Positions 41,191 to 51,668 of a DNA stretch of 51,668 nucleotides are shown here, piece after piece. The stretch is from a virus, in the IMG/VR virus record IMGVR_UViG_3300032294_002202, positions 1 to 51,668 of that record. One strand, written 5' to 3'. Within the stretch, counting starts at the first letter, position 1; each line of letters starts with the position of its first letter. The notes under the pieces are model-generated. The model ran no database searches and had not been told where the DNA came from. It saw only the letters and a list, made by a program, of their open reading frames with translations. The position numbers and the translations under genes are program-made.

Positions 41191-42948
41191 TTAAATACTT
41201 TTAACCACTATCCAGTCATAATCATGCACTTGATAGGCATTTTCTGTCAATGACATTGACGTATCTTCTGCCAAAGTTGACGGTCTTTCCGTATAAAGGG
41301 CATAGTGCTCTAGGGCTAATGTTGAGCTAAATGCTGATGGGTATATTGCTATATTATTATATAGATTTCTTGGACCAGAATTTGACCATGTTCCATTAGT
41401 TACTTTAACATTAAACCATATTTGAGTGGATATTGCTGAAGATAAAACTACAACAATATGATATAACTCATCTGGATACATAAAGGTATTTATATTAGTG
41501 GCATTAGTTCTGTTTACTCCATTTACATATATTGCAGATATTCCGCTTTTTGTAACCGCCCCAGTATTGCTCCATGAGTAATGTGCTAAATCATGGTAGA
41601 AAAGATAGTTAGCAGAAAGGCTTATTGGCGTAAAGAACATTTCTAGAGTCTGAACACTCATTAATGTATTTATAGGGAAACCAGAATCATATGGCCTAAT
41701 TCCATTATTTTTATTTCTCATTAAAATTGGGTAATCTTCTGAAGATAAATCATAATCCCACAAGGCTAGGTTTGATTCTTCTGGCTCGATGTCTTCCCCG
41801 TGATTATCTGCAAACAGTGTCTTGCTTGAATAAAAATTAAAAGACAATGAATAAAGCTTTGGAAAAAACTTTGTTATGTCTGAGCTGCTTAAAGTTATTT
41901 TTACATATAAAACTCTATCTTCTGCAAAGGATCCATCTCCGTATACATAACCTGGAATTGCATCTCCATTAGAGCATGGATCATAATTTATTCCATCTGT
42001 TCCAATTGCTACTGATACACCTTTTGTTCCGCTCCATTCAACTTTTGAGGACATAAACGATATAGAACTTGGCACTGAAAATATATCATACAAGATTACA
42101 TCATCTGAATCGGTATTAACAGTTATATAATCTTCGTTGTCCTGATAATATAAACCCTCTTCTTGAAACTGATTCCATTTTTTATTATACGGATAAGAGT
42201 AAGAAAATGTTTTTTTAATTGATCTATCTGATAAAGTAAATAAAACTCCTCCATCTGGTCCCGCTATTTGTATTGGAGCAATTCCACTGAATAAATTAAA
42301 ATGAGATTTAGCTTTTTCTTGAGTTAGGGCATATCTATACACCGCTGGCGCATCAACAATAAATGAATCTTCGGAGCTGGCTGTTGGACCAATTTTTGGA
42401 AAAAACGATTCGTTTGTAAAAGTATATTTATCATAAAATATTGAGCCAGCTCTTTCTCCATTTATAAATAAGCTAATTGATGTTGGAGTATAAGTTGCAC
42501 AAACATGCGAGGACTGATTGATTGAAGGAAGCCTAAAATCTAGTCTTTTGTTTTCTAGCAAAAAAACAATGTTTCCGTCTTCGTAATAAATACCTATATC
42601 GCTTTCACCATCTGCAAAAATTGGGGTAAGTGTAGTGGAAGATATCTTTGGATAAACCCAACATTCTAATGTAAAATCATTATCAGAAAAATATTTAGTG
42701 GCCAACCCTCCAAGAGCGGCATCTCCGTTATAGTCGTATTCTATTGGAAGATCAATTGAGTTTAAGTTATTAATTAAAGATCCAGAAACGCCCCCAGAAA
42801 CTAAAGGAAGTATATCTGTTGTTAAAGATCCTACATAGGATCCGTTATTTCCAGAACCAGATACATCAAAGGCGGTTGTGCCAGAAGTTTCATCCAACGG
42901 CCAAAAGGCTATTGGGTTATCTTTTATAACCTGCAATTGATACGACAT
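41191..42948 (-). CDS. LamG/ConA-like lectin virion protein
   Basis: Five hundred and eighty-five residues. The N-terminal segment (AFWPLDETSGTTAFDVSGSG, FTLECWVYPKISSTTLTPIF, SISLFINGERAGS) is a LamG/concanavalin-like jelly roll; a second beta-rich lectin-like region follows the middle (VQTLEMFFTPISLSANYLFY, IYVNGVNRTN). Likely a tail-fibre or capsid decoration that binds glycans. It closes the dioxygenase cluster, and its -10 at 42955-42960 is only 6 bases from the ATG. It is a candidate virion partner or substrate for the enzymes. Confidence 0.8.
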   Translation of the reverse strand: MSYQLQVIKDNPIAFWPLDETSGTTAFDVSGSGNNGSYVGSLTTDILPLVSGGVSGSLINNLNSIDLPIEYDYNGDAALGGLATKYFSDNDFTLECWVYPKISSTTLTPIFADGESDIGIYYEDGNIVFLLENKRLDFRLPSINQSSHVCATYTPTSISLFINGERAGSIFYDKYTFTNESFFPKIGPTASSEDSFIVDAPAVYRYALTQEKAKSHFNLFSGIAPIQIAGPDGGVLFTLSDRSIKKTFSYSYPYNKKWNQFQEEGLYYQDNEDYITVNTDSDDVILYDIFSVPSSISFMSSKVEWSGTKGVSVAIGTDGINYDPCSNGDAIPGYVYGDGSFAEDRVLYVKITLSSSDITKFFPKLYSLSFNFYSSKTLFADNHGEDIEPEESNLALWDYDLSSEDYPILMRNKNNGIRPYDSGFPINTLMSVQTLEMFFTPISLSANYLFYHDLAHYSWSNTGAVTKSGISAIYVNGVNRTNATNINTFMYPDELYHIVVVLSSAISTQIWFNVKVTNGTWSNSGPRNLYNNIAIYPSAFSSTLALEHYALYTERPSTLAEDTSMSLTENAYQVHDYDWIVVKSI

Positions 42949-42954
42949 GTAATT

Positions 42955-42983
42955 ATTATACCTTAAGTATTAAACCAAAACAA
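42955..42983 (-). promoter_or_regulatory. Promoter at the lectin gene, leaderless geometry
   Basis: TTGTTT (42978-42983), 17 bases, TATAAT (42955-42960), then AATTAC and the ATG at 42948. The transcript would start at about the A of the ATG. Confidence 0.5.
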
Positions 42984-43565
42984 CGGTATCATGTACTTGC
43001 TGCCAGATGTTACTGGTTTTGGATCATGATAGTAAGGTTTATTTGAAGGGAAAATAATAAGGCTGCCAGCTTCTGGCTTAATAGATATCCCTTGCTCTGG
43101 AAACTCAATTTTTCCACCCTCGTAATTATCATTTAAGTATAAAACCATAGAGATAGAAGGAATTAAAGTTGTTCTGCCCTCACCCTCATAGTCTACGTGT
43201 GGCCCCATATAAACATCTGGAAGGTATTTATTTATTGTATAGTAATCTGGAAGAAAGTCTGGATTAATTCCAGTTTGTTCGTAATAGTCTTTTGCACATT
43301 TTTCAACTACACTTTTTATTTTTTTTGATATATTTATTTGATCTAAGTCATAGGCATTTCTTGAATAATCTATACTAAATTTTGATTCTTTTACTGAGCC
43401 ATAAACAGTATCTGAATTGCTTGCTTTCCATAAGTTCCACTTGGTTATTGGAGAATAAATATCTGAAAATAAATCTAATCTTTCTAAATTTTCTATTAGG
43501 GTATAAGGGTCATCTATAGCGTTTTTATAATAAAATATATTTTTTTCTAAAACATTTAAAATCAT
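42963..43565 (-). CDS. 2-oxoglutarate/Fe(II) dioxygenase 6 (prolyl-hydroxylase-like)
   Basis: Two hundred residues. Iron ligands H123-V-D125 and H180, and the 2-oxoglutarate-binding basic residue Lys190 in GSKYM, with the family motif YLNDNYEGGKIEF. The N-terminus (EKNIFYYKNAIDDPYTLIEN) is clearly homologous to dioxygenases 4 and 5, so these three arose by tandem duplication. Uses O2, Fe(II) and 2-oxoglutarate to hydroxylate a substrate, releasing succinate and CO2. Overlaps the previous gene by 4 bases. Confidence 0.9.
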   Translation of the reverse strand: MILNVLEKNIFYYKNAIDDPYTLIENLERLDLFSDIYSPITKWNLWKASNSDTVYGSVKESKFSIDYSRNAYDLDQINISKKIKSVVEKCAKDYYEQTGINPDFLPDYYTINKYLPDVYMGPHVDYEGEGRTTLIPSISMVLYLNDNYEGGKIEFPEQGISIKPEAGSLIIFPSNKPYYHDPKPVTSGSKYMIPLFWFNT

Positions 43566-44197
43566 TTTTTATGCATTCCAAACGAAGATGGTGATATGTA
43601 TTTAATTCCAGAAGAAATTGGGTTAACACGATGTATATATGGCTCATAAGAAGAAAACATCATTGCGCTTCCAGCTTCTGGCTTTAAAGATATGTTATGG
43701 TTTGGGAATACTATCTCTCCACCGTCATAATTATCCGTAAGATATATGATGCATGATATTCCCAAAACACCGCCTTCTGGATCCCCAATTGAATCAATAT
43801 GGTCACTCATTCCGTTGCCGACTGCATACCTAGAAAGTATTGATGGGAAAAAATCAGTAACAACTCCACCATGTTGTTTTGCATAATAATTTCCAGCTTC
43901 AAAAAACTTTTCTGATCTTAATGATTTGTATATATATTCGCAAGCATTATTTAAATTTTCATCGTCTGTTTTTACTGGAATGTTAATTCTTTTTTGCGCT
44001 CCAAAACGATCAAACTCTCCTTCAACAACAGGTATTCCTTCTCCTATATAGTTGGGTCCCCAAGGAGACCATTTTGTTATAGATGTTGTGCTAGACATAA
44101 TAGAATCTGTTTTTTCTATATATTCTATAAGTTGATATGGATTTTCTATTATATTTTTATAGTAATAAATATTTTCATCTAATATTTCAAGATCCAT
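43562..44197 (-). CDS. 2-oxoglutarate/Fe(II) dioxygenase 5 (prolyl-hydroxylase-like)
   Basis: Two hundred and eleven residues with H133-I-D135, H189 and Lys199 (GIKYI), and YLTDNYDGGEIVF. The N-terminal ENIYYYKNIIENPYQLIE matches dioxygenases 4 and 6. All active-site residues appear intact, so it should be catalytic. Overlaps both neighbours by 4 and 11 bases, typical of one co-translated operon. Confidence 0.9.
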   Translation of the reverse strand: MDLEILDENIYYYKNIIENPYQLIEYIEKTDSIMSSTTSITKWSPWGPNYIGEGIPVVEGEFDRFGAQKRINIPVKTDDENLNNACEYIYKSLRSEKFFEAGNYYAKQHGGVVTDFFPSILSRYAVGNGMSDHIDSIGDPEGGVLGISCIIYLTDNYDGGEIVFPNHNISLKPEAGSAMMFSSYEPYIHRVNPISSGIKYISPSSFGMHKK

Positions 44198-44840
44198 CTA
44201 GGTCTGCCAGGCCATTTCTATAATTATTATTTTCAAACCAGTCAAGCTTAGCCCAAACAATTGGAGACATATACTTTGTTCCTTTAATTAAAGGCAAGGA
44301 CTCATGAAAATACGGTCTATGAGACGGAAAGACAACAACGCTTCCAGCTTTTGGCTTAATTTTTACCCCTTGCTTAACAAAGTTTAGCTCGCCGCCAACA
44401 TAGTCATCATTTAAATAAAGAACTGCTGAAACTGTAGAATCAGAAACATCAATAGAGTCATCCATTGAATCAACATGTGGCCCCATTTGTTGCCCTTCAT
44501 CATATTTTTTAATCATTAGGTTTTTATTAAAACCAACATATATTTCTTTTTCAACTCCATAAATGTTTATGCATGCATCTAAAACAGTTTTTAGCTTATC
44601 GCCTAATGCAGCAATTCTTTTGTTTAATTCTGTATCTTCTGATCTTAAGTTTTGATTATAGTCTTTAGTATCACCGTATACAAAATGATCGCTATCGTTT
44701 GGATGCCAGGTTCTCCATGGAGTCATAGATGTGCTTTCATTTAAAAATTGATCTAAGTACTCAATTTCTTTAATTACTCCTTGTGGGTCTTTTAAAATAG
44801 ACTCAAAATAGAAAATATTTTCATCTAGCTTTGTATACAT
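44187..44840 (-). CDS. 2-oxoglutarate/Fe(II) dioxygenase 4 (prolyl-hydroxylase-like)
   Basis: Two hundred and seventeen residues; H122-V-D124, H179 and Lys189 (GTKYM), with YLNDDYVGGELNF. Third member of the tandem trio (ENIFYFESILKDPQGVIKEI). The long loop after the HxD, with DDSIDVSDS, is specific to this copy. Substrate unknown. Confidence 0.9.
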   Translation of the reverse strand: MYTKLDENIFYFESILKDPQGVIKEIEYLDQFLNESTSMTPWRTWHPNDSDHFVYGDTKDYNQNLRSEDTELNKRIAALGDKLKTVLDACINIYGVEKEIYVGFNKNLMIKKYDEGQQMGPHVDSMDDSIDVSDSTVSAVLYLNDDYVGGELNFVKQGVKIKPKAGSVVVFPSHRPYFHESLPLIKGTKYMSPIVWAKLDWFENNNYRNGLADLDGS

Positions 44841-45550
44841 TATTCACCTTTTCCTATATGTTTTGGGACATAGCCTTGAGCTCTTTCTTCTGCCCATACT
44901 TTATATAACTCGTCTTGACCTTTTCTTATTTCTGCTAAATCTTTTGCCCACATTGCTTCTTGTTCTGGAGTATATACTGACTCTGCTTTATCCCAAAATG
45001 ATCCGATTGTATATCTAGTTCCACTTAAAACTTGAGTTACTTCATGCTCATTACCATGACCTCCGTCAAAAATTGAAAGCATTCCAAGTTTTGGAACTAT
45101 CGTTATATCATCATTTTTAAAGTTTAGCTTGCCACCAGTAAATTCTTCATTTAAATATAAAAATACTGCGTACTTGCTTCTTATGAAAGGTGTTGGATTG
45201 CCATCCTCATCTGAATTATCTGAATGAAAAGTTGCAAATGCACCCTCTGTCCATTTTTGTGCATGATAACTAACTTCTGTTAATTTTCTACCCAAGACTT
45301 CTTCGGACTTTTCTTTTATTCTTTCTTTTAACTGTCTAAAATACTCTGGATCTAGCCCAAACATTTTTAGATTATTGTCTCTTTCCCAAAAACCCATGGC
45401 ATAAGACTCATAAAATGATATCTGGTTCCATATTAGCATCTTAGACTCTACTAAAAACTCTAAATATTTAATTATTTTTTCACACTCGTCTTTGTCTAAA
45501 AAATCTGAGAGCGTGTAAACATCTTCTTTGTGTTTAATTAAATTACTCAT
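44840..45550 (-). CDS. 2-oxoglutarate/Fe(II) dioxygenase 3
   Basis: Two hundred and thirty-six residues. H109-S-D111 (FHSDNSDEDG), H169 in NEHEVT and an arginine (Arg179 in GTRYT) in place of lysine; motif YLNEEFTGGKLNF. A longer C-terminal tail (EQEAMWAKDLAEIRKGQDEL) is helical. It belongs to the same superfamily but is more diverged than dioxygenases 4-6, so it may have a different substrate. Confidence 0.88.
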   Translation of the reverse strand: MSNLIKHKEDVYTLSDFLDKDECEKIIKYLEFLVESKMLIWNQISFYESYAMGFWERDNNLKMFGLDPEYFRQLKERIKEKSEEVLGRKLTEVSYHAQKWTEGAFATFHSDNSDEDGNPTPFIRSKYAVFLYLNEEFTGGKLNFKNDDITIVPKLGMLSIFDGGHGNEHEVTQVLSGTRYTIGSFWDKAESVYTPEQEAMWAKDLAEIRKGQDELYKVWAEERAQGYVPKHIGKGE

Positions 45551-46229
45551 TTATTTTTCTTTCTAAGCTAGTAACTGTCCAAAAAAATGGACAAGTATAT
45601 CTTGTTCCCTCTTTTACTTTATTTACGCCATGTATATAATTTAAATCTCCTGGGAAAAAATAAGCACCCCTAGCTTTTGTTTTAAATGCTATATCTTGTT
45701 TTGGAAAATATAATTCTCCTCCAACGTAGTCGTCATTTAAATAAAACACAGTTCCTATGTCATACCAAGGAAATTCGTTTGGTGTACCAGCATCTGGACC
45801 CTCATGTAGTTCTTTGTCTGCATGAGGAAACTGCATGGTTCCGACTGGCCATCTAACTATAGCTGGGTGGGTTGGTAAAACCTCTACACCAAAAAAATCT
45901 TCAATTACTGGCTTCATTCTTTCAATCACACCCTGAAGTATTTCAATTACTTTTGGATCTGATTTTTCTAAAGTTTTTAAAGTTGCAACCCTATCTTCCC
46001 AAACCCTGTGGTCATAAATTATGTTGCCATTTTCATTCCATTGAGACTCAGTAATATCCCAGAATTTATTATTTTTTGCAAAGTCTAGTAGGTAGGACTG
46101 CTCTTCTTCTGTTATAAAATTTTCTAACTCAACAATTTTATCTTTTGAGTTACCAAAATATCCAGAAGGGGTTATTGACTGTCTAGAGTACCTAACTCTT
46201 TCTCCGACCTCATCATTTAAATTTATCAT
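45543..46229 (-). CDS. 2-oxoglutarate/Fe(II) dioxygenase 2
   Basis: Two hundred and twenty-eight residues. H136-A-D138, H200 and Arg210 (GTRYT), with FYLNDDYVGGELYF. The arginine is shared with dioxygenase 3, so these two form a subgroup. SD AGGAG is near the ATG. It is coupled to dioxygenase 3 by an 8-base overlap. Confidence 0.89.
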   Translation of the reverse strand: MINLNDEVGERVRYSRQSITPSGYFGNSKDKIVELENFITEEEQSYLLDFAKNNKFWDITESQWNENGNIIYDHRVWEDRVATLKTLEKSDPKVIEILQGVIERMKPVIEDFFGVEVLPTHPAIVRWPVGTMQFPHADKELHEGPDAGTPNEFPWYDIGTVFYLNDDYVGGELYFPKQDIAFKTKARGAYFFPGDLNYIHGVNKVKEGTRYTCPFFWTVTSLERKINE

Positions 46230-46238
46230 ATTAATCTC

Positions 46239-46964
46239 CTATGTATACCTTTTTTTAGACCACGTATGCTTTTTATAAGCTCCGCCATCTTTTGTTCTGT
46301 AAAGCTTTGCTTGATATTCGTGTCTTAACACAATGTCTTCGTAATTATGTTTTTCTATTTCCATACTCCAGTCTTCTCTTTTAAAAGGTATTATTTGAAC
46401 GTATGGAGTTCCTTCTGGAATAACTCCTTCAAAGTCTTCTCTTAAAAAAAATGGTATAAGTCCTGGCGTATCCATGTTATCATTATCTATTATACCAGCA
46501 GTTGTAATGAATGGTAAATCAAATCTATTTACAGGACTCAAATACAATGCACTATAACCTTTTGGAAGCTTTGGAGCCCATGCTGGATACCAATGAAAGT
46601 GATAAGGCAGATACCCTTTTGGATTTGAAAAATCATCCATTTCTGGTCTTTCATCACAAAATTCTTCAAAACCTAAAGAAGTTTTAACTTTTGTTATCCC
46701 TTCTGCATTTTTATAAAATGTTATGTCACATGGAGTTTTATACATATACCCAGCAGTAAATATATCTACTAAAGCTGGGCAAGCCTTAAAAGAAAGCATC
46801 TTGCCGCCTTGCTCATTATGATAGTATTCTTCACTACCTGGAATTTTTAAATATCTATCTGCAGAACTGTACCACTTTGGGACCATTTCTTTTGAGGGAA
46901 CAGGATAAAATTTATCTGAAGAATTATTATAAAGTCTATTAGAATGAAATACTATTTTATTCAT
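46239..46964 (-). CDS. DUF6065-like protein B
   Basis: Two hundred and forty-one residues. Pattern: FYPVPSKEMVPKWYSSADRY, KACPALVDIFTAGYMYKTP, DITFYKNAEG, and late IPEGTPYVQIIPFKRED. I recognise this layout (Pro-rich start, then 'GYxxxTPxDI' and a terminal 'GTPxxxIPF') as resembling the DUF6065-type proteins found beside 2OG oxygenases in phage genomes; that recognition is from memory. It resembles the next gene in the final motif. Possibly a substrate-binding or assembly partner. Overlaps the next gene by 8 bases. Confidence 0.6.
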   Translation of the reverse strand: MNKIVFHSNRLYNNSSDKFYPVPSKEMVPKWYSSADRYLKIPGSEEYYHNEQGGKMLSFKACPALVDIFTAGYMYKTPCDITFYKNAEGITKVKTSLGFEEFCDERPEMDDFSNPKGYLPYHFHWYPAWAPKLPKGYSALYLSPVNRFDLPFITTAGIIDNDNMDTPGLIPFFLREDFEGVIPEGTPYVQIIPFKREDWSMEIEKHNYEDIVLRHEYQAKLYRTKDGGAYKKHTWSKKRYT

Positions 46965-47655
46965 TTATTGTTTTTAACCTCAATGTTTTTATTTCATGTT
47001 GACCTATTTTTTTGCCATCATGATCTGTAGCATTTCTATAAAAATGTGTCCAGTTTCCAGAACTTGTTATCTTTTGTGAAACCTCTGCATACTTTTCTCC
47101 ATCAAATTTAAGCGGAGGTATTTCTGATATATCTTTTATTATTAACTCTGAATTATTTATTGATTTTAAGCTTAAAGGTATAACCGAACATATTGGGGTG
47201 CCAGCTTTAATTGTTATTGGTATGTTTGGCTTTGTAATTTTCCATGCTACTTGCAGCTCTCCTATAAAAAATGACGTTGATAGCAATGTAGTAAAACATT
47301 GAGCACCGTCAATAAATTGATTTGGCACTGGCATAATTAAGCTAGTTGTATCTTCGTCTGTTTTTAAAGTTATTCCTGTTTTAAAACTTATGGTTGCATT
47401 AGATCTAAATGGGTGACACCACTGTTCTCCAGATAATATTTTTACATGTGATGGATTTGAGTCAGATATTCCATCCCAAATAAAAGTAATATCCTCTGGG
47501 AAAGATATACCCCAACCCAATGAATTTGTTAAATTTACTGGAAAACAGTTATAAGCATGTTTGTTGTATGTTTGATCCATCCAATCTCTTTTAACTGAAA
47601 TTTGAGATATATCTACTTTGTCTTCTTTGTTTTTATATCCATTTAGAATATACAT
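46957..47655 (-). CDS. DUF6065-like protein A
   Basis: Two hundred and thirty-two residues. Features GWGISFPEDITFIWDG, SNATISFKTGITLKTDEDTT and AGTPICSVIPLSL, a beta-rich fold that I associate with DUF6065. It follows dioxygenase 1 by 4 bases and overlaps protein B by 8 bases, so it is part of the same operon. No catalytic motif. Function is unknown; its fixed pairing with dioxygenases suggests it acts on or recognises the same target. Confidence 0.65.
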   Translation of the reverse strand: MYILNGYKNKEDKVDISQISVKRDWMDQTYNKHAYNCFPVNLTNSLGWGISFPEDITFIWDGISDSNPSHVKILSGEQWCHPFRSNATISFKTGITLKTDEDTTSLIMPVPNQFIDGAQCFTTLLSTSFFIGELQVAWKITKPNIPITIKAGTPICSVIPLSLKSINNSELIIKDISEIPPLKFDGEKYAEVSQKITSSGNWTHFYRNATDHDGKKIGQHEIKTLRLKTINE

Positions 47656-47659
47656 CTTG

Positions 47660-48325
47660 TTAAGCTAATCCGTCGGAATATCTTTTTTCTATTTCACGAT
47701 AGTCTGGTGTATGAGGCGCTTCAAGGTAATCTAACATTGTTACAACTGAATATTTTGTTCCAGAAGTAACTGGCATTGCTGCATGCGAATAAATATATGA
47801 AGATGGAAACAGATAAAGGTCTCCTGCTTTTGGTTTAATCTTTAAGTTTAATTTATCAAAAAACAGCTCTCCTCCTTCATAGTCATCATTTAAGTATCCG
47901 ACAGAAGATAGAGTACATATATAAGAATAACCATGATCTGAATGAACATCAAAGTGCTGTCCTGGGCCGTATTTGATAAAATTAAAAGCTTCCCAATAAT
48001 TTAATGGGGCTATTCCAAAGCCATTTCTATAGTGTTCTACTGGACCGACTTGAGCAGCTTTGGCATCTTCCCAAATTTCTTCAAGAAGGAGTGTAGACTC
48101 TGTTTTGCCTTCTGGACTTTCAACATTTTTCTTTATCTTAAAATCAAAACAATCTCTATATTCTTTATCTAGATTTGCATAACCAGTTCTTGCTTCTTTC
48201 CATTGATTATCAGAAGACTTATCATCTAAAATATTTTCAAGCCTCGATATCAAATCCATCTCTTTTGTAAAAATATTTCTGTATACAATTATACCTGGAT
48301 AAAGATATTCCATGTCTACTTTCAT
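47660..48325 (-). CDS. 2-oxoglutarate/Fe(II) dioxygenase 1 (prolyl-hydroxylase-like)
   Basis: Two hundred and twenty-one residues, first gene of the enzyme operon. HFDVHSD offers two HxD options (H124-F-D126 or H128-S-D130); H181 and Lys191 (GTKYS) complete the site, with YLNDDYEGGELFF. Upstream lie an extended -10 promoter and an SD GAGGG. It is the closest copy to the Pro-Pro repeat gene. Prolyl-4-hydroxylase-like fold and motifs are clear; the true substrate is not known. Confidence 0.9.
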   Translation of the reverse strand: MKVDMEYLYPGIIVYRNIFTKEMDLISRLENILDDKSSDNQWKEARTGYANLDKEYRDCFDFKIKKNVESPEGKTESTLLLEEIWEDAKAAQVGPVEHYRNGFGIAPLNYWEAFNFIKYGPGQHFDVHSDHGYSYICTLSSVGYLNDDYEGGELFFDKLNLKIKPKAGDLYLFPSSYIYSHAAMPVTSGTKYSVVTMLDYLEAPHTPDYREIEKRYSDGLA

Positions 48326-48376
48326 TGTTCCCTCGTATTTCTATTAATAAATACTAATTTATAGATTTATAATAAT

Positions 48377-48385
48377 ATTATACCA
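48377..48385 (-). promoter_or_regulatory. Extended -10 promoter of the dioxygenase operon
   Basis: TGGTATAAT directly after the T-run of the upstream terminator; TSS about 45 bases before the ATG of dioxygenase 1. No strong -35. The arrangement matches the terminator-plus-promoter junction at 36718-36703. Confidence 0.55.
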
Positions 48386-48394
48386 TTTATAATT

Positions 48395-48417
48395 AAAAAA
48401 CCCCACTGGTTGTGGGG
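48395..48417 (-). terminator. Intrinsic terminator after the Pro-Pro repeat protein
   Basis: CCCCAC-AACCA-GTGGGG followed on the minus strand by TTTTTT. It stops transcripts from the tail-fibre and repeat genes before the dioxygenase operon. Confidence 0.85.
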
Positions 48418-48440
48418 CTTAATAATTAAGTAAACTATAA

Positions 48441-49322
48441 TTAAATAGAGAATACTGTAAAGGATGGTGGACTAAAGAACCGTGGTGGACTAAAGAACAC
48501 TGGTGGACTAAAGAACACTGGTGGACTAAAGAACACTGGTGGGCCAAAGAATACTGGTGGCGCAAAGAATCCTGGTGGCGCAAAGAACACTGGTGGGCCA
48601 AAGAACACTGGTGGCGCAAAGAATCCTGGTGGCGCAAAGAATACTGGTGGACCAAAGAATGCTGGTGGACCAAAGAATGCTGGTGGAGCAAAGAATGCTG
48701 GTGGACCAAAGAATGCTGGTGGTGCAAAAAATGTTGTTACTGGACCAATCCTATTAGAAGCTCCTTCACCATTTGCGTTAGATAGCCAAACATCGTAGCT
48801 TTGTGCTGTTCCAGGCTCGTTTGCAATTGTTACTGGGCTTGCACCAGTTCCATTTTTAGTTGGGCTATCATTGACAGAAGAATATCTTCTAGAAGATATT
48901 GCTTTTCCACCTGTAAGAGGCTCTTGCCATGACAATACATCTTGTCCATTAACTGTTGATGTAACAGACATTGATGCTGGCGCACCTGGAACTGTAGTTG
49001 CTGTAAATGAAGCAGATGTTGTGCTAGGTGAATTTCCAGAAGCGTTTTTTGCTACAACTGTAACTGTATAAGATACTCCAGAAGATAATCCAGTAATTGT
49101 ACCTGATGTAGATGTTACGTTAGTAGTAGTTGTTGTTGGAGTTGTTGTTATATCATAACTTGTTGCTGCAGGAGAATCTGCTGGCAATGTCCACGAAACA
49201 GATGCTGCACCATTATTATATGCACGAGCTGTTCCGACATCTGTTGCTACTAAATTTGTTACTGCTTTCGGCTCTAAAAAATCATTAGCCGATTGACTCA
49301 TTCTACCTGCTTGTTTTGACAT
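48441..49322 (-). CDS. FN3 protein with 15-fold FF[AGS]PPx repeat tail
   Basis: Two hundred and ninety-three residues. Residues about 15-110 and 110-195 look like two fibronectin-III domains (KAVTNLVATDVGTARAYNNG, SGVSYTVTVVAKNASGNSP, ASMSVTSTVNGQDVLSWQEP). Residues 198-287 are 15 tandem hexapeptides FF[AGS]PP[AVGRS], ending in FTVFSI. It is probably a virion fibre or tail protein. The Pro-Pro array is the type of sequence that prolyl-4-hydroxylases act on, and six such enzymes follow it. Its own terminator separates it from them. SD AAAGGGG. Confidence 0.85.
   Translation of the reverse strand: MSKQAGRMSQSANDFLEPKAVTNLVATDVGTARAYNNGAASVSWTLPADSPAATSYDITTTPTTTTTNVTSTSGTITGLSSGVSYTVTVVAKNASGNSPSTTSASFTATTVPGAPASMSVTSTVNGQDVLSWQEPLTGGKAISSRRYSSVNDSPTKNGTGASPVTIANEPGTAQSYDVWLSNANGEGASNRIGPVTTFFAPPAFFGPPAFFAPPAFFGPPAFFGPPVFFAPPGFFAPPVFFGPPVFFAPPGFFAPPVFFGPPVFFSPPVFFSPPVFFSPPRFFSPPSFTVFSI
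48462..48731 (-). repeat. Tandem 18-bp repeat (15 copies) coding for FFxPPx
   Basis: Fifteen in-frame 18-base units, near identical to GGTGGACTAAAGAACACT on the plus strand. Units at the C-terminal end (plus-strand left) are most alike, indicating recent expansion; small changes swap Ala/Gly/Ser at position 3 and Ala/Val/Gly at position 6. Confidence 0.92.
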
Positions 49323-49346: not shown

Positions 49347-51668
49347 TTATAGTGCAAGGTCTCCAAAGACCAACCAGCCTGCAGATGTTTTCATAGCTGT
49401 TGCAACTGAGTTTGTAGTTCTTAGCTTCAAACCTGGTGTTCCTACAACGCTGTTAGTTGAAGCAAACTGTGCTCCAGTTCCTGAAGCCTGATAGAAATCA
49501 ATAGACTGTCCAGTTGAATATCCTGTTGCAGGAAGTGTAATAGTAACTGCTCCAGTTAGTGGAACAAACTTATCTTGTTCTCCAGCTGCAATTGTTGCAG
49601 AAGATGAAATTGCTGTTGCAAATGTTGTAATAGATGGAACACCAGCACGTGTCTGTGTACCATCTGTAAATGCTACACCTGATGCTGCAACTGTTACAAG
49701 ACCTGTAAATGTTGGGGCATTAATTGGTGATTTAGCAGCAAGATCGGATGTTAATCCTGAGATCTTAGACTGTGCAATTGCTGCTGATGCGCTAATGTCA
49801 GCATTGACAATTGTACCATCTGCAATCATATCTGAAGTGATTGCTCCAGTTGCAACAGAAATTGTTCCTGGTGTTGCTTCTGTCAAACCAGAGCCTGCAA
49901 CTACTGTCTTACCAGCATTAAACTCTGTATAAGAGATGTTGTCTGTTCCGATTACGATTGGGTTCGCTGTTGAGTTATTGATGTATCCAACAGATGCGTT
50001 TACTGTTCCTCTTTGAACAAATGTGAAGTCACCTGTCTTCATTTCTCCAGTTGGGTTGTTATCTGCATCTGTTGCACGAGTTAATACCCATGGAGCAGAT
50101 ACTGAACCTACTGTTGTTAATGTGTAAATACCGTTTTGCTTTGCGTCAGTCTGATTCTTAATAAGAACTCTCTCACCAAGAACTACTGTTTCTCCATCAA
50201 GGACTGCAAATGCACGGTTTGTGTCGGCTGTAAGAGTTGCACCTACACCATTTGTGCCGTTATTATAAATTACTGCCAAGTTGGTAACAGAGGCTGCGTG
50301 AACTGATTCGTGGAAGTTAATTCCAGCAGTTACGTTGTCAACATATAGTTTAGTTGCTGCATGAAGGTCTGATGTTGGTGCACCTGATAGTGTAAGTGCT
50401 CCTGTCATTGTTCCTCCAGCAAGTGGTAGGCGAGCAGTTAACTGTGTTTGAACTGATGAAGTAACTCCATCAAGGTGTCCAAGTTCAGCTGCTGAAACAT
50501 TTCCAATTGATGTTGTTGAAGGAAGTACTACTGTACCAGTAAATGTTGGTCCTTCAAGGTTGGACTTAAGATCAAGTGCTGTCTGTGTAGCAGTTGAAAC
50601 TGGCTTATCAGCATCTGAAGTATTGTCAACATTTGCAAGGCCTACTGAAGACTTTGTAAGTGCTGCTACTGCTGCTGCTACCTTAGAGTCTGCTGCTGTT
50701 CCTGCTGCAGTAATTGCATCTGCTTCTGCAGTGTCAGCATAAGACTTTGTTGCAAGAAGTGATGTGTCTGCAATTCCATGAACATCTGTTGTGTCAGAAT
50801 TATGTGTACCAATTGCAGTGTTTCTATTATTTGTTTCAGTTCCGACAGATGTATCTACATACGACTTTGTTGCAAGAAGGGAAGTGTCGGCAATCCCATG
50901 AACATCAGTTGTATCTGAAGCATGATTTGCAACAGATGTATCTGCATAAGACTTTGTTGCAAGATCTGCTGTGTTTGAAATTCCATGTACAGATGTTGTG
51001 TCATCATTGTGTGCTGTTAATGCTGTAGAAAGATTTGTTGCAACTTGACCTAGTGCATCAGATATTGCTGAGCCTCTGTCAGTGGCTTCTTGACCTACTG
51101 CTACTGATATGTCTGTTGCAACCTGACTTAATGCTGAAGTTATTTCTCCATCTGTATATGCTGATGCATTTGTTTCTGCTTCATTTACAGCGTTGTTTGC
51201 TGCTGTATCTACATAAAGCTTTGTTGCTGCATCATAGTCTGAAGTAGGAACTGGTAGTGATGTTATCTTATTATTGTTCATAGAAAGATCACCGCTCATT
51301 GTTCCACCAGCCAAAGCTAGCTTGCCGCTAAGGGATGTAGCAATTGAAGTAGCAAAATTTGGATCGTCTCCCAAAGCTGCAGCTAATTCATTTAAAGTAT
51401 TTAATGCTTCTGGAGCAACATCAACTATTGCAGCTGCTGCAACAGCAGCTACATTGTCGGCATATGACTTTGTTGCAAGGTCTGCTGTGTTTGGAATGCC
51501 GTGTACACTTGTTGTGTCTGCTTCATGTGTTGAAAGCGCTGTTGCTGCAGTTGCCTCTGCTGCTGACTTAGCTGCGTTAGCCTTTGAAGTTGCATCTGCT
51601 GCTGCAGTTGCCTCTGCTGCTGCTTGAGCTGCGTTGGCCTTTGAAGTTGCATCTGCTGATGCAGTTGC
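49347..51668 (-). CDS. Tail fibre protein (N-terminus beyond window)
   Basis: At least 773 residues; the coding frame is open to the right edge, so the apparent start at 51374 (a TTG) is not the real one. It contains Ala-rich repeats, several VHGI..TADLATKSYAD-type units, LALAGGTMSGDLSMN/ RLPLAGGTMTGALTLSG, and late IIDFYQ-like strands ending in a C-terminal domain (SAGWLVFGDLAL). This is the classic design of a trimeric phage fibre. The next gene, the FN3/Pro-Pro protein, follows 24 bases after its stop. Confidence 0.88.
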   Translation of the reverse strand, partial: ATASADATSKANAAQAAAEATAAADATSKANAAKSAAEATAATALSTHEADTTSVHGIPNTADLATKSYADNVAAVAAAAIVDVAPEALNTLNELAAALGDDPNFATSIATSLSGKLALAGGTMSGDLSMNNNKITSLPVPTSDYDAATKLYVDTAANNAVNEAETNASAYTDGEITSALSQVATDISVAVGQEATDRGSAISDALGQVATNLSTALTAHNDDTTSVHGISNTADLATKSYADTSVANHASDTTDVHGIADTSLLATKSYVDTSVGTETNNRNTAIGTHNSDTTDVHGIADTSLLATKSYADTAEADAITAAGTAADSKVAAAVAALTKSSVGLANVDNTSDADKPVSTATQTALDLKSNLEGPTFTGTVVLPSTTSIGNVSAAELGHLDGVTSSVQTQLTARLPLAGGTMTGALTLSGAPTSDLHAATKLYVDNVTAGINFHESVHAASVTNLAVIYNNGTNGVGATLTADTNRAFAVLDGETVVLGERVLIKNQTDAKQNGIYTLTTVGSVSAPWVLTRATDADNNPTGEMKTGDFTFVQRGTVNASVGYINNSTANPIVIGTDNISYTEFNAGKTVVAGSGLTEATPGTISVATGAITSDMIADGTIVNADISASAAIAQSKISGLTSDLAAKSPINAPTFTGLVTVAASGVAFTDGTQTRAGVPSITTFATAISSSATIAAGEQDKFVPLTGAVTITLPATGYSTGQSIDFYQASGTGAQFASTNSVVGTPGLKLRTTNSVATAMKTSAGWLVFGDLAL
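51543..51668 (-). repeat. 19-residue Ala-rich coiled-coil repeats
   Basis: Two full 57-base copies of a unit reading ADATSKANAAQAAAEATAA, plus the end of a third at the window edge. The array continues off the right side. Confidence 0.8.

Follow-up and report, generated by a model that had tools for sequence, protein, structure and literature searches.

Prolyl hydroxylases and related 2-oxoglutarate (2OG)/Fe(II) oxygenases have been described in animals, algae, bacteria, a eukaryotic giant virus and cyanophages. Here they are compared with a locus in the IMG/VR virus record IMGVR_UViG_3300032294_002202, all 51,668 bases of which were analysed and are referred to as the window. The segment from 42963 to 49322, on the minus strand, starts with a repeat gene (REP), which is followed directly downstream by six paralogous oxygenase genes, named A to F in transcription order, and two DUF6065-type genes among them, dufA and dufB. 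The probability that this segment is a mobile phage cassette, in which the oxygenases hydroxylate prolines of the repeat in the adjacent fibre protein, is estimated at roughly 70%. Position, strand and gene content had been recognized correctly in the initial annotation, i.e., a 293-residue FN3 protein ending in 15 repeats, six intact 2OG/Fe(II) paralogues on the same strand and two DUF6065-like genes.

Closest Described Systems

As a general idea, virus-made hydroxyproline already exists for the giant virus PBCV-1. Its prolyl 4-hydroxylase (P4H) was reportedly proposed by Eriksson and colleagues in 1999 to hydroxylate proline-rich repeats of viral proteins. To our knowledge, the PBCV-1 enzyme has no adjacent substrate, no set of three to six paralogues and no DUF6065 gene. 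Like the cassette enzymes, this vP4H/vCPH (5c5t) is a virus-encoded 2OG enzyme with the same fold, and it is found among the top structural matches of A and the profile matches of D, E and F, but its virus infects eukaryotes. The algal enzyme Cr-P4H-1 (3gze, 2jig) is the best structural match of A and was solved with a proline-rich peptide other than collagen, (Ser-Pro)5. It is, however, a cellular enzyme with only 16-18% identity to A and a TM-score of about 0.6. As far as is known, the P4Hs of Bacillus anthracis and Pseudomonas putida are encoded by single chromosomal genes. They are bacterial peptidyl-prolyl hydroxylases (3itq/5hv0 and 4iw3) and the best sequence-profile matches of A and D/E/F, but the partner in the bacterial entries 5v7y and 4iw3 is EF-Tu rather than an adjacent repeat protein. 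Prolyl 3-hydroxylase 1 (P3H1; 8k0e) is the best PDB profile match of B and C and shares an Arg at the 2OG position with them, although it belongs to the animal collagen system and aligns over the catalytic core alone.

Genes resembling prolyl hydroxylases are numerous in phages and other viruses. Among phages, T4-like cyanophages (for example, Nanhaivirus ms29, PMC10436341; S-MbCM7) resemble the cassette in having several genes of the Pfam family PF13640 (2OG-FeII_Oxy_3) per phage, some of them beside a short tail fibre gene. Unlike the cassette, these oxygenases, about 30% identical to A, come without DUF6065 and without a nearby proline-rich repeat in the records checked. They are regarded as multi-copy auxiliary genes with perhaps several functions (PMC10436341), and a recent survey lists viral prolyl hydroxylase as an auxiliary gene and calls the viral use of P4H cryptic (PMC9301287). 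In two such cyanophages (L372:557-4676 and L373:230-2546), two 2OG oxygenases and an intervening gene follow a short tail fibre gene, again without proline-rich repeats; possibly, this is a different fibre-modifying set in cultured phages.

No description of the cassette was found in the open-access literature, subscription papers and preprints being outside reach, nor was the cassette found in the loci of named phages that were read, which comprised cyanophage and other phage oxygenase loci. Within the reach of these searches, the features without precedent in the open-access literature are the linked substrate, the set of paralogues, the presence of DUF6065 and the exchange of the whole as a block in phages.

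The Repeat Protein

REP (48441-49322) encodes a protein of 293 amino acids with an fn3 domain (PF00041 at 2.3e-9, Pfam) and 15 tandem FF[AGS]PPx units at its C-terminus. Tandem-repeat detection places the array coding for these units at 48465-48722 on the minus strand, as an 18-bp repeat of 14.3 copies with 90% matches. An overlapping open reading frame (ORF) at 48419-48727 was rejected as a separate gene, being the array read in another frame. Codon comparison indicates that the unit is kept by selection as a protein, beyond mere DNA copying. Between neighbouring units in dereplicated relatives, the F and P codons have 620 synonymous vs 10 nonsynonymous differences, the latter count being somewhat lowered by the choice of loci for FF and PP and the former unaffected by it. 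At the two x positions, the same comparison gives 193 synonymous vs 593 nonsynonymous differences. A homologous gene heads the cassette in relatives, and REP is proposed to be a fibre or adhesin protein of the virion and the substrate of the oxygenases.

The repeat protein varies among relatives. In many of them it ends in a Hint/intein-like domain (L016:6397-7710, L011:7890-9215, L063:5851-7215, L075:7813-9147, L284:1325-2437), recognized by weak PF14890/PF07591 matches in some and by a conserved start of the type xVNTLLRTPTG in others; REP in the window does not have this domain. Such an end could possibly let the protein cleave itself or attach the fibre tip covalently. PASTA replaces fn3 in some relatives (L284:1325-2437, L286:727-1224), which hints at binding to cell-wall material. 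One cassette (L081:6165-7022) has a Cys-rich repeat (FCPFFPNFCPSFCP).

Co-inheritance of the Repeat and the Oxygenases

Starting from the repeat, viral contigs were searched with a DNA pattern for FFxPPxFFxPP that is blind to oxygenases. At least 120 stretches were found and, among those listed, there are 117 repeat ORFs, or 81 after dereplication. Among the matches listed, an oxygenase lies within 1.6 kb downstream in 49 of the 57 dereplicated repeat genes with that much sequence, vs an upstream oxygenase in 0 of the 54 with at least 1.6 kb upstream, and the loci usually have 5-6 oxygenases within 7 kb. For seven of the eight repeat genes without a near downstream oxygenase, a PF13640 or oxygenase ORF is present elsewhere in the record or locus, and the eighth (L106) is on an 8.5-kb fragment. 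When 32 records with the repeat pattern but no clear adjacent oxygenase were searched whole, PF13640 was present in 24; of the other eight, six are pieces that contain no repeat ORF and two are fragments shorter than 14 kb.

The portal gene was used as a neutral marker, and 37 records with portal homologues were searched whole. All eight records with the repeat have 5-8 PF13640 genes. Among the 29 records without it, 24 have no PF13640 gene, five have one, and a multi-gene cluster occurs in none. Fisher's test yields p-values of 3e-5 for any PF13640 gene and 3e-8 for the cluster, related phages not being statistically independent. On the portal tree (36 rows), branches with good support require the cassette to have changed state at least three times. 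The repeat and the oxygenase cluster are gained or lost together, i.e., they are tightly co-inherited, and chance linkage between them is nearly excluded. This bears on the explanation that the oxygenases are ordinary auxiliary metabolic genes, which by chance reside in a recombination-prone fibre region. The common listing of 2OG oxygenases as auxiliary genes in cyanophages and the cryptic use of viral P4H, both cited above, would be in line with it, but the strict downstream direction among the matches listed, the conserved gene order and the lack of any multi-gene cluster in the 29 repeat-less relatives make it very improbable.

In the portal-selected set, the only genes that vary with the block are REP, A to F, the DUF genes and the fibre gene upstream. 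LamG and the structural genes are present in relatives on both sides of this division. The LamG protein, which the initial annotation had put forward as a possible further substrate, was rejected as a partner, as every portal-selected relative has it, even where no oxygenase is present. A dufA-like or fn3 match, in each case weak, is present in a few relatives that lack the cassette. In the same slot, cassette-less relatives have Gly-rich or collagen-like GxY fibres and no oxygenase cluster. A collagen-like substrate was likewise rejected, since the repeat is devoid of GXY periodicity and the sister phages with GXY fibres have no oxygenase cluster. In four cassette-less loci (L221, L237, L258, L278), fibre genes in this slot, 1-9 kb upstream of the portal gene, have long Gly-rich C-termini (GGGGGAGG...).

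Starting from the oxygenases, 71 dereplicated loci with at least 1.2 kb of upstream sequence were examined, 64 of which have a proline-rich repeat ORF within 4 kb upstream. In two others (L049, L074) such an ORF is present as well and was overlooked by the automatic cut, three (L300, L330, L338) have just 1.2-2.6 kb of upstream sequence, and L370 is a partial match to a different gene. The sole real exception is L302/G086, which keeps DUF6065 and two oxygenases without a proline-rich repeat in its 46-kb record. A consistent loss of the repeat protein in phages that keep the enzymes, which would speak against a hydroxylase-substrate pair, was thus looked for, and L302 is all that was found.

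Active Sites and Relatives of the Oxygenases

All six oxygenases have an intact HxD...H motif and a residue for 2OG, which is Lys in A (47660-48325), D (44187-44840), E (43562-44197) and F (42963-43565), and Arg in B (45543-46229) and C (44840-45550). Five of them are over the Pfam cut-off for PF13640; B falls just below it, at 24.8-26.5 vs 27 bits. Among aligned relatives, HxD/E...H is kept in 746 of 763 oxygenases, and K or R at the 2OG position in 763 of 763. The residue following the 2OG lysine differs in the alignments, with KY in the window enzymes vs KW in 5hv0. An AlphaFold2 model of A, built from 44 sequences, has a mean confidence (pLDDT) of 91.9 and shows the double-stranded beta-helix fold. 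Its top Foldseek match in the PDB is the algal P4H with bound (Ser-Pro)5 (3gze, E 3e-11), and nearly all of the top 50 matches are peptidyl-prolyl hydroxylases, the PBCV-1 enzyme included; the exceptions are PKHD-type proteins, PolD and the like.

Sequence profiles place A and D/E/F, predicted to be P4H-like, nearest to bacterial P4H, with the B. anthracis enzyme matched at 1e-6 and 6e-11. For B and C the best PDB match is P3H1 (7e-6 and 2e-8). This match is local, covering about 75-80 residues of the catalytic core, and it therefore counts as a lead, not as a family assignment. The split between A/D/E/F and B/C is likewise a lead for a putative difference in regiochemistry. Assignment to the PKHD/PiuC dioxygenases (PRK05467) is not obtained, the NCBIfam equivalog cut-off being missed (at most 41 bits vs 143-336). 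A function in defence was rejected, as PADLOC matches are limited to a generic 2OG model. Some cassettes have oxygenases of a second 2OG enzyme class, the JmjC_2 type, among their PF13640 and DUF6065 genes (L285:3523-4669, L069:7774-8373).

The Substrate and the Modified Residue

With the A gene of G037 and the DUF6065 gene of G051 as queries, more distant cassettes were collected. Their repeats are of different types: HFPPFFPP, IIAVTPP, IIASPPP, PPTTPP, PPPYTPPYV, SFPPPPP and FNPG. The five portal-selected records with a single PF13640 gene, read by eye, also have another proline-containing repeat nearby. In G037, with close relatives in G039 and G040, an FNPG repeat with a Hint-like tail lies beside an A-type gene; G035 has an SNPPPY repeat near its PF13640 gene; and G051 carries (IIAVTPP)n together with DUF6065, further oxygenases and JmjC_2 proteins. 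What the repeat types have in common is proline, not phenylalanine. This matters for the alternative that the enzymes modify the repeat elsewhere or otherwise, with the paired phenylalanines being beta-hydroxylated or cross-linked, or the small x residue modified. Within the FFxPPx class, FF varies no more than PP does; oxygenase C weakly matches (4e-4, 20 bits vs a cut-off of 150) the NCBIfam model 2OG_matur_YhhC for a cyclophane-peptide oxygenase; and JmjC_2 oxygenases, a class outside PF13640, are added in some relatives. Distant cassettes, however, swap FF for II, TT, Y or HF while proline is retained, and both fold and profile comparisons point to prolyl hydroxylases; modification of phenylalanine or x is judged unlikely.

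Several points weigh against proline hydroxylation of the repeat. Inheritance as one block is not in itself enough to show what the substrate is, and the fibre gene upstream (49347-51374) varies too. L302 does without the repeat. The TM-scores of the A model to known P4Hs are moderate, at about 0.6, and cultured cyanophages with roughly 30% identical oxygenases have no such repeats nearby, so the enzyme family is not tied to repeats everywhere. Three of these points also fit an adhesion module inherited together, whose oxygenases target the upstream fibre, a molecule of the host surface or a small molecule, with the repeat serving just as a linker or rod: the upstream fibre changes along with the block, L302 retains enzymes without the repeat, and cyanophage oxygenases of this superfamily adjoin short tail fibre genes without it. 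Yet the repeat gene directly precedes the enzymes in many phages, even where a neighbouring enzyme has a different orientation, LamG is uncoupled from the block, and repeat types change while their richness in proline stays. On balance, an adhesion module with another target seems improbable, and hydroxylation of the repeat prolines is preferred.

The hydroxylase-substrate pair had been the central proposal of the initial annotation. Its functional pairing is supported by the repeat-, portal- and enzyme-anchored comparisons, including the co-occurrence in related phages, while hydroxylation itself is a prediction from sequence. The suggestion that several enzyme copies mean several substrates fares less well. 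Paralogues are gained and lost alongside a single repeat protein, which makes several sites or chemistries on one substrate at least as likely.

Proposed Mechanism

In the proposed mechanism, the product of the first gene, with fn3 here and PASTA in some relatives, would display the C-terminal proline-rich repeat. Oxygenases of the same block, dependent on 2OG, Fe(II) and O2, would hydroxylate its prolines while virions are being made, with A, D, E and F following a P4H-like route and B and C perhaps acting at other positions in a 3-hydroxylase-like manner. The DUF6065 proteins would assist. Hydroxyl groups would make an otherwise very hydrophobic proline-rich rod more soluble and shift it towards an extended, polyproline-like form. 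The modified repeat may be a polyproline-like rod of greater stiffness and solubility, with the host-binding part carried or displayed on it. Each unit has two prolines, a proline has two possible ring positions, and the x residues differ between units, which would offer enough distinct sites to account for the number of paralogues.

A wider version of this proposal is that the cassette is a self-contained, horizontally moving system for fibre maturation. It would consist of a proline-rich repeat adhesin and dedicated enzymes of the 4- and 3-hydroxylase-like kinds, joined in some versions by JmjC-type oxygenases and Hint domains, and would lay a multi-site hydroxyproline pattern on the virion, as a prokaryotic counterpart of hydroxyproline-rich cell-wall proteins. 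We hold this extended version only tentatively, at somewhat less than an even chance. If true, oxygen-dependent protein hydroxylation would join the means by which phages build and diversify receptor-binding fibres, and the cassettes would provide a catalogue of enzymes that hydroxylate hydrophobic proline-rich peptides. The question is directly testable, since the candidate substrate is encoded beside the enzymes, the whole block moves together, and both partners have natural variants.

DUF6065 Genes

The core cassette member dufB (46957-47655) encodes DUF6065 (PF19541 at 1.7e-29, 103 bits vs a cut-off of 26.6). The common member dufA (46239-46964) has no Pfam match; it matches phrog_7084 at 1.2e-35, and profile comparison links it to DUF6065 (probability 78, E 1.8e-5). 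The model of the DUF6065 protein dufB has a weak match to a dUTPase-like fold, with a TM-score of 0.39 by query length. DUF6065 was rejected as an additional oxygenase on account of this model, and since the match is weak, no function is given to it.

Organization and Spread of the Cassette

The cassette is widespread in uncultured phages, and the segment in the window is a single example of it, with the general layout REP - A - DUF6065 - B - [D/E/F] - C - F. Scanning IMG/VR with enzyme A yielded 80 loci. In these and the repeat-selected loci, ORFs labelled by homology follow a conserved order of REP, one or two A-type genes, dufB, often dufA, B, variable D/E/F types, C, F and commonly LamG. 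Another group of cassettes has B on the opposite strand beside REP, with the positions of A and dufB unchanged, so the association is not one frozen operon. Moreover, several longer cassette records, some of 53 to 205 kb among them, are without a detectable homologue of the window's portal, which indicates that the cassette crosses phage lineages. Searches of the segment, REP and dufB by blastn/tblastn against 50,697 phage records gave no match, and at that sensitivity the cassette seems absent from named phages. A query with the repeat only gave no match to phage records either, in a weak search with low-complexity filtering on. In several cassettes, a gene whose product looks by eye like a short-chain dehydrogenase lies beside the oxygenases (L035:6234-6917, L062:6704-7378, L086:7691-8233).

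Flanking Genes

The window has a tailed-phage morphogenesis block, in which Pfam recognizes an HK97-type capsid protein, an S78-type protease, a portal and a tail tube protein. In transcription order, the REP-oxygenase segment lies just upstream of the genes for LamG, a protein of 113 amino acids and the portal. The LamG-domain protein (41191-42948, minus strand) forms the downstream border and lies outside the cassette. Upstream of REP, the tail-fibre-like protein at 49347-51374 on the minus strand has weak to moderate homology, in the portal-selected set, to cassette-bearing relatives only; since it varies with the cassette there, its gene is considered part of the swapped block. At the edge of the window (51539-51668) there is a 57-bp tandem repeat of 2.3 copies with 93% matches.

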